From contig NZ_CP091430.1 in the NCBI RefSeq assembly GCF_024734895.1, positions 6,714,501-6,778,500 of the forward strand: a stretch of DNA of 64,000 bases. The letters run 5' to 3'. Position numbers and translations under genes: made by a program. This document shows positions 4,010-61,716 of this stretch, in pieces. The notes beneath the pieces were generated by a model that was not told where the DNA came from, did no database searches, and saw only the letters and a program-made list of their open reading frames with translations. This DNA comes from Paenibacillus spongiae (GTDB lineage Bacteria > Bacillota > Bacilli > Paenibacillales > Paenibacillaceae). Every line of letters starts with the position of its first letter. Positions within the stretch are counted from its first letter, which is position 1.

Positions 4010-4152
4010 ATGGTTTGATCTCTCCTCTCACTCCAAAATTTAGCAAGAAGAAACGGCTTCCTCCGTCCGCCGCGGCGAAGTAAGTTTCTCCCCTGAACAA
4101 GACCAGAACAATGTTGATATCATGCTTAACCTCCCTGATCTTGCAAAAAAAC

Positions 4153-4183
4153 AAAGCACACCGCGCTAGAGACGGTGTGCTTT
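4153..4183 (-). terminator. leader terminator T2 before bmrC
   Basis: The 11-bp arms AAAGCACACCG/CGGTGTGCTTT close a 9-nt loop. Read on the minus strand they are followed by GTTTTTTT. The structure lies inside the untranslated leader of the bmrC-like gene, not after a gene, so it must be read through for bmrCD expression. Confidence 0.8.
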
Positions 4184-4201
4184 GGCCCTGCTTTATATAT
4201 T

Positions 4202-4238
4202 AAAAAAAGCGCACGTCACGAGAGTCCGTGACCTGCGC
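4202..4238 (-). terminator. leader terminator T1 before bmrC
   Basis: The 12-bp arms (4209-4220 and 4227-4238, one C:C mismatch) close a 6-nt loop, followed on the minus strand by seven T residues. It starts about 25 bp after the leader-peptide stop codon, the normal geometry of a ribosome-controlled attenuator. Confidence 0.82.
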
Positions 4239-4262
4239 CCTGATTATAGCTGCGAATGATAC

Positions 4263-4376
4263 CTATACGACAAAAATATCGCCGGATCGATCGTCAAGGA
4301 GGCCACGACATGTATGCAGTTGTACGTTCAATTGACTATGGTTCACGGCAATCTGACGAATATTCGCATTAAACAT
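4263..4376 (-). CDS. putative attenuator leader peptide (BmrB-like), 37 residues
   Basis: An open frame of 37 codons starts at ATG 4376 with GGGAG ten bases upstream and begins MFNANIRQIAVNHSQ. It sits between a good promoter and two tandem Rho-independent terminators that precede bmrC. In Bacillus subtilis the orthologous exporter operon is preceded by the translated leader bmrB and is induced by translation-inhibiting antibiotics through ribosome-mediated attenuation. This frame has the same position and is therefore likely to act by its translation and not as a free protein. Its sequence similarity to BmrB was not tested; the claim rests on position, ribosome site and terminators. Confidence 0.7.
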   Translation of the reverse strand: MFNANIRQIAVNHSQLNVQLHTCRGLLDDRSGDIFVV

Positions 4377-4425
4377 GTCTGAGTCACTCCCTTTCCGTTC
4401 TGATTTGCAATATGATACTTCGTAA

Positions 4426-4453
4426 GTTATCACGCGGGACAAACCGTTGTCAA
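4426..4453 (-). promoter_or_regulatory. promoter of the leader-bmrC-bmrD operon
   Basis: On the minus strand the -35 box is TTGACA (4448-4453), the spacer 16 bp and the -10 box GATAAC (4426-4431). The predicted start lies about 45 bases before the leader-peptide ATG. Confidence 0.65.
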
Positions 4454-61377: not shown

Positions 61378-61695
61378 GCAGAAAACCCCTTCCATCCACA
61401 AACGGCAGCATGCTGCTTTCCGTTAAGGGACGAAAGGGGTTAATTTTCGCGGTACCACCCTGATTTGCCGAGGATCTCGCGATCTTCAGCCTCATGAGGC
61501 AAGGAAGCTTGTTCCTTACCTGCAGCACGATAACGTGTGCCGCTTCCGTCTGACCCTACTCGCCTTAACCGGTTCGGCTTTCGGATCAGCAGCTCCGAGA
61601 CGACTCCATACAAGGGGATTATGGCAAAGGTCTCAGCAATCCCTTCGCTCTCTGGACATAAGAGCCCCTGTACTTGATTCTCTTCATCGCTTGTT
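61378..61695 (-). promoter_or_regulatory. T-box riboswitch 2 (proximal) upstream of ilvB
   Basis: On the minus strand the T-box sequence AGGGTGGTACCGCG lies at 61448-61461, and the terminator stem AACCCCTTTCGTCC/GGATGGAAGGGGTT spans 61382-61441. Stem I contains AGAGAGCGAAGGGATTGCTG and, on its 3' side after GGA, a GTC codon (61602-61604), read as a valine specifier. Uncharged tRNA-Val would favour the antiterminator. Confidence 0.88.
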
Positions 61696-61716
61696 TGTAT
61701 ATGTTATAGAACGCAA

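Follow-up and report, generated by a model that had tools for sequence, protein, structure and literature searches.

A conserved leader with two serial terminators upstream of bmrCD in Paenibacillus spongiae, a predicted ribosome-mediated transcription attenuator of the bmrB type

In leader-peptide attenuation, as in the trp operon of Escherichia coli, the position of the ribosome on the leader decides between mutually exclusive hairpins. The bmrBCD operon of Bacillus subtilis was likewise shown to be controlled by attenuation at a leader, bmrB (Reilman et al. 2014, PMC4191407). This control depends on translation of bmrB, a codon-optimised bmrB gives more termination while the response to lincomycin is retained, and drugs acting on the 50S subunit induce the operon, whereas kanamycin and gentamicin do not (PMC4191407). 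The bmrB frame is 162 bp long, 119 bp separate its end from bmrC, and mutations that relieve termination fall at its nucleotides 136 and 140 (PMC4191407). In another system, msrDL-msrD (ABC-F), the leader encodes a six-residue arrest peptide, and the stalled ribosome blocks the terminator directly (PMC10314930). Here we describe a leader located in a 64,000-nucleotide stretch of the Paenibacillus spongiae genome (the whole stretch analyzed is referred to as the window). Sequence comparison and folding models make it highly probable that this leader is a ribosome-mediated transcription attenuator of the bmrB type, controlling a bmrCD exporter via two serial terminators.

The genes found immediately 3' of the leader, on the minus strand like all the elements described below, are orthologues of bmrC (4009-2267, 580 aa, about 60% identity to BmrC of B. 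subtilis) and bmrD (2254-92, 720 aa), with YheI/BmrC and YheH/BmrD of B. subtilis as their respective top PDB matches. The initial annotation had described a promoter, a 37-codon open reading frame (ORF) with a ribosome-binding site, and two hairpin/U-tract terminators before bmrC, an arrangement that we confirmed on the minus strand with corrected coordinates. The promoter, recognized from its sequence as sigma-A type (4453-4424), is composed of TTGACA (4453-4448), an 18-nt spacer, and an extended -10 element, TGATAACTT, ending at 4424 (TGA-TAACTT, 4429-4424), and the motif TTGAC...TG-N-TAACTT is kept in aligned relatives. The SD sequence AAAGGGAGUGA (4394-4384) is placed 7 nt 5' of the ATG at 4376, where the 37-codon leader ORF begins (4376-4263, stop codon at 4265-4263; predicted peptide MFNANIRQIAVNHSQLNVQLHTCRGLLDDRSGDIFVV); with these signals, the leader is presumably translated. 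Within the ORF lies the putative antiterminator segment, arm 1 (UCGUGGCCUCCUUGAC, 4308-4293), for which covariation and ribosome-position folding point to pairing with arm 2, i.e., the 5' arm of the first terminator. This terminator, T1 (4239-4202), has a stem GGCGCAGGUCACG..CGUGACGUGCGCU (4239-4208, -22.0 kcal/mol) formed by arm 2 (4239-4227), a loop, and arm 3 (4220-4208), followed by a U-tract to 4202, with covariation on both sides of the stem. The second one, T2 (4184-4145), has a stem CAAAGCACACCG..CGGUGUGCUUUG (4184-4152, about -20 kcal/mol) formed by arm 4 (4184-4173), a loop, and arm 5 (4163-4152), and its U-tract extends to 4145. A generic terminator scan reported T2 and missed T1 because of an internal mismatch in the latter. 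Folding of the leader transcript (4415-4010, 406 nt) was better than that of any of 100 dinucleotide shuffles (z -4.1), and transcripts are predicted to end at both T1 and T2.

Between T2 and bmrC there is a dispersed imperfect-palindrome repeat (4117-4044) of roughly 50 to 75 nt and of the type GAAGAAAC..UCGCCG..CGGCGA..GUUUCUUC, of which at least ten other partial copies exist in the genome (10 were aligned). The repeat is missing in Paenibacillus mendelii (L031), and the window has about 100 extra bases 3' of T2 compared to this species. A second SD-led ORF of 27 codons (4123-4040), not listed in the initial annotation and made up mostly of the repeat, was considered as a second leader given its good SD and rejected, since it falls within the dispersed repeat and the nearest relative lacks it. 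It is probably not a functional leader, and the extra segment 3' of T2 is better explained by insertion of the repeat.

The conservation of the two terminators was analyzed in a set of 191 bmrC upstream regions, drawn from 80 named BmrC loci of a genome collection, from genomes related to that of the window, and from additional genomes of the same class. An automatic scan detected a T1-like hairpin with a second terminator 3' of it in 123 of them, and once the doubtful ones had been dropped, about 100 regions with both T1 and T2 were left, which gave a good alignment. For the choice of the first hairpin, the summed energy of hairpin and antiterminator was rejected as a guide, since the wrong hairpin was often picked, and a motif-anchored set was used instead. 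The combination of leader ORF, T1, and T2 was found across Paenibacillus, Cohnella, and Brevibacillus. Two terminators in series, regarded at the outset as unusual, are the rule in Cohnella, Brevibacillus, and the Paenibacillus of the window's group. When 24 sequences were aligned, 98.1% of the T1 and T2 cells were paired, changes on both sides were present in 8 of 24 pairs, and none of 500 shuffles was as good in either paired cells or covariation score. A covariance model of T1 plus T2 recovered a single site in the whole 7.6-Mb window genome, located at bmrC (E 3.5e-14; the next match had an E of 0.12), and its best matches in relatives adjoined BmrC loci wherever they were comparable. No Rfam family matched the leader at the gathering threshold, and the only match was at chance level (E 0.78). 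Elsewhere in the window, the Rfam search identified a T-box leader (RF00230, 103 bits, 61423-61696, minus strand).

Some lineages kept T2 together with a hairpin without a U-tract at the position of T1. These were two relatives of B. subtilis (L112 and L113, with BmrC identities of 81 to 82%) and a set of other Paenibacillaceae (L148 and L173-L200). Many members of this latter set (L148, L173, L174, L182, L184, L186, L187, L189, L190, L192, L194, and L196-L200) share, upstream of bmrC, a conserved segment of the leader (AAUACCGAAGCA.CCC or a similar sequence), and by eye this segment appears complementary to the hairpin without a U-tract that precedes their single terminator. This lineage apparently carries a one-terminator version of the bmrC leader switch. 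Many Bacillaceae also have a second tiny SD-led ORF, of about 17 to 25 codons and about 30 to 125 nt upstream of bmrC (L080, L084-L086, L091, L098-L100, L110, L112-L113, L116, L119-L121, and L130). Its conserved end, (E/D)GG or (E/D)SG followed by the stop codon, is found just 5' of bmrC (e.g., MVMVQLKKMMTAVETEGG and stop).

Arm 1 is complementary to the 5' arm of T1 (GGGCGCAGGUCACG). In other species, the corresponding segments of arm 1 and the T1 5' arm read GUAACC/GGUUAC or GUGACC/GGUCAC, and we also found a diverged pair, CCUUCC/GGAAGG. In a permutation test, in which each leader picked its best site against its own T1 5' arm or that of other species, native combinations reached -17.6 kcal/mol versus -14.8 kcal/mol for the permuted ones, with z values of -7.6 (50 clusters) and -4.0 (16 clusters). 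This covariation argues for an antiterminator encoded in the leader that would exclude T1. Taking covariation and the ribosome-position folding model together, an antiterminator excluding a terminator was found for T1 only.

The folding of the leader RNA with the ribosome set at each codon, proposed as a check in the initial annotation, was carried out on an RNA ending just 5' of the T1 3' arm and with a ribosome footprint of 30 nt. In this model, the probability of the antiterminator was about 0.5 to 0.86 with the ribosome on codons 1 to 7, 9, and 16 to 19, but only 0.27 to 0.43 on codons 8 and 10 to 15, and 0.27 with no ribosome. With the ribosome on codons 20 to 31, positions that cover or fence off arm 1, the probability dropped to ≤0.07. 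In this model, a ribosome stalled early favors the antiterminator and one on codons 20 to 31 forbids it. We had also folded the whole leader to equilibrium for each ribosome position, an approach that was uninformative and gave way to the truncated RNA described above. In the full-length RNA, both terminators prevailed at equilibrium wherever the ribosome was placed, and therefore the decision of the switch must be kinetic, as the model assumes.

In the mechanism that we propose, the 37-codon leader would be translated promptly when no drug is present, and the ribosome would be on codons 20 to 31 while the polymerase makes the 5' arm of T1. With arm 1 hidden, T1 would form and most polymerases would stop there, T2 catching those that leak through. 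A ribosome inhibitor would stall or slow the ribosome early in the leader, leaving arm 1 (4308-4293) exposed. The exposed segment would then capture the T1 5' arm ahead of synthesis of the 3' arm, T1 would be precluded, and transcription would proceed into bmrCD. Drugs would be expected to induce bmrCD of the window, and T2 would be relieved together with T1. It is plausible that having two terminators lowers leakage, and the other role suggested in the initial annotation, integrating two signals, found no support. The proposal of the initial annotation that a BmrB-type leader-peptide attenuator precedes bmrCD is thus supported by orthology, a conserved leader ORF, covarying terminators and antiterminator, and ribosome-position folding.

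An SD-led ORF covering arm 1 was present in 90 of 103 distinct loci, versus 37% in dinucleotide shuffles (it was undetected in 13 of the 103), with lengths of 14 to 53 codons and a median of 30. No common peptide motif appeared among about 90 leaders, and the frame in which arm 1 is read differs between species (..YLVTRLLA.. in L063 versus ..FIDGNPLA.. in L069). Judging from these comparisons, conservation extends to the RNA and to the existence of a frame that can be translated across arm 1, but not to the leader peptide. Given the unconserved peptides and the variable reading frame of arm 1, sensing looks like a matter of ribosome speed and not of a stalling peptide, and the idea that the leader sequence could define which antibiotics are sensed was not supported. 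Codon-specific effects in a single species may still be compatible with these data. Arrest-peptide control as in ErmCL or MsrDL, where a specific nascent peptide and a bound drug would stall the ribosome at a set codon and fix the drug spectrum, has in its favor that leaders of this kind are known (MsrDL, PMC10314930) and that the window has a leader ORF. However, the lack of a shared motif and the shift of frame of the conserved RNA segment between L063 and L069 make it improbable, and no conserved stalling motif of the ErmCL/MsrDL kind was found among the leaders. Even less credible, to the point that we give it hardly any weight, is that T1 and T2 are ordinary terminators of the upstream gene and unrelated to the control of bmrCD. 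This gene, fdhA-like according to a formaldehyde dehydrogenase model (5778-4519), is indeed on the same strand as T1 and T2 and ends 66 bases 5' of the promoter. However, the conserved promoter and the leader ORF stand between it and T1, the T1-T2 pair is seen again upstream of bmrC in about 100 regions, and in one of the regions compared (L033) the sequence 5' of the promoter is unlike that of the window.

Within the preferred reading, a ribosome-mediated attenuator of the bmrB type, different ways of dealing with T2 can be envisaged. T2 could be a second terminator free of regulation, with no other effect than to reduce leakage and cap induction, T1 alone being switched, a scheme that we take as possible without favoring it. 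In the window, T2 is more stable than its best competing pairing, and this competing pairing is without covariation. However, the regulated terminator of B. subtilis, as defined by the bmrB mutations at nucleotides 136 and 140, falls at the position of T2, not of T1, in the relatives L112 and L113. The T2 homologue thus probably corresponds in position to the bmrB terminator tested by experiment, which was placed via these relatives because none of the genomes was identified as that of B. subtilis. On this view, T2 would be the counterpart of the proven regulated terminator, and T1 of the window would be an added terminator, built on a hairpin that elsewhere has no U-tract. With similar probability, T2 could be switched by a five-arm relay (or "domino"), in which capture of arm 2 by arm 1 frees the T1 3' arm GUGCGCUUU to pair with the T2 5' arm AAAGCACAC, so that T2 is disabled too. 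This is an extra step on the best explanation and does not contradict it. In the same scenario, which we rate as possible, one stalled ribosome would switch two serial terminators as a single low-leak switch, T1 acting both as terminator and as anti-antiterminator. Most loci have the T1 3' arm and the T2 5' arm in register for this pairing (82% of cells paired, compared to ≤63% in slid registers; 81% for 99 loci). Native combinations also paired somewhat more strongly than the permuted combinations (z -2.8, p 0.003, 63 clusters; z -2.5 in another set-up), with no signal at the 63-cluster level for the control T1 5' × T2 3'. Besides, core Paenibacillus species and bacteria closely related to B. 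subtilis retain a hairpin without a U-tract at the T1 position before T2, which would be expected if the hairpin also serves T2. Against the relay, no pair of this helix changed on both sides and row shuffles were equally good, one central position was unpaired in 23 of 24 sequences, and the signal was absent in loci where the first hairpin has no U-tract. In the window, moreover, the helix reaches only -9.1 kcal/mol versus about -20 for T2. Although the permutation test was weakly positive, the pairing was kept only as a rival because covariation was absent. In two loci, L121 and L122, the stems of T1 and T2 have nearly the same sequence (GCCGCGGGAA-type), and the T1 3' × T2 5' pairing reaches -17 to -20 kcal/mol. 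Among natural leaders, these two would be the most suitable for a test of the relay.

The two-terminator bmrC leader is widely conserved and previously undescribed in the literature searched, in which, at partial coverage, we found neither tandem-terminator leader attenuators nor bmrCD in Paenibacillus. The bmrB switch, of which a single example had been studied experimentally, is thereby broadened to a conserved RNA element that precedes bmrC in many Bacillales, and what is conserved seems to be RNA pairing and ribosome speed rather than a peptide motif. These data suggest that soil Paenibacillus and Brevibacillus broadly sense ribosome inhibitors, and the relief of serial terminators by one leader becomes directly testable.

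Compared to the systems described above, the leader of the window resembles trp-type attenuation in that, according to the folding model, the position of the ribosome would decide between mutually exclusive hairpins. Unlike trp, it has no outstanding run of amino-acid codons, it has two serial terminators, and an early stall would expose the antiterminator segment. As in msrDL-msrD, a drug-resistance gene is preceded by a short leader ORF and by an intrinsic terminator that, by analogy, would be relieved by a stalled ribosome. However, the window has a 37-codon leader, a predicted RNA antiterminator, and no conserved peptide. By gene descent, the element groups with the B. subtilis bmrB attenuator, and it is predicted to work alike, with the orthologous exporter downstream, its own promoter, a short leader ORF, and a choice between terminator and antiterminator that would be coupled to translation of the leader. 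In B. subtilis the hairpins are inside bmrB (nucleotides 60 to 162), whereas in the window the leader ends before T1 and the hairpins are outside the ORF. Both terminators of the window have U-tracts, in contrast to the T1-position hairpin of the near relatives of B. subtilis (L112 and L113), and its leader peptide is unrelated to theirs. Thus, what appears to be new with respect to bmrB is a leader that ends before the hairpins, a second U-tract terminator, and a leader antiterminator supported by covariation.
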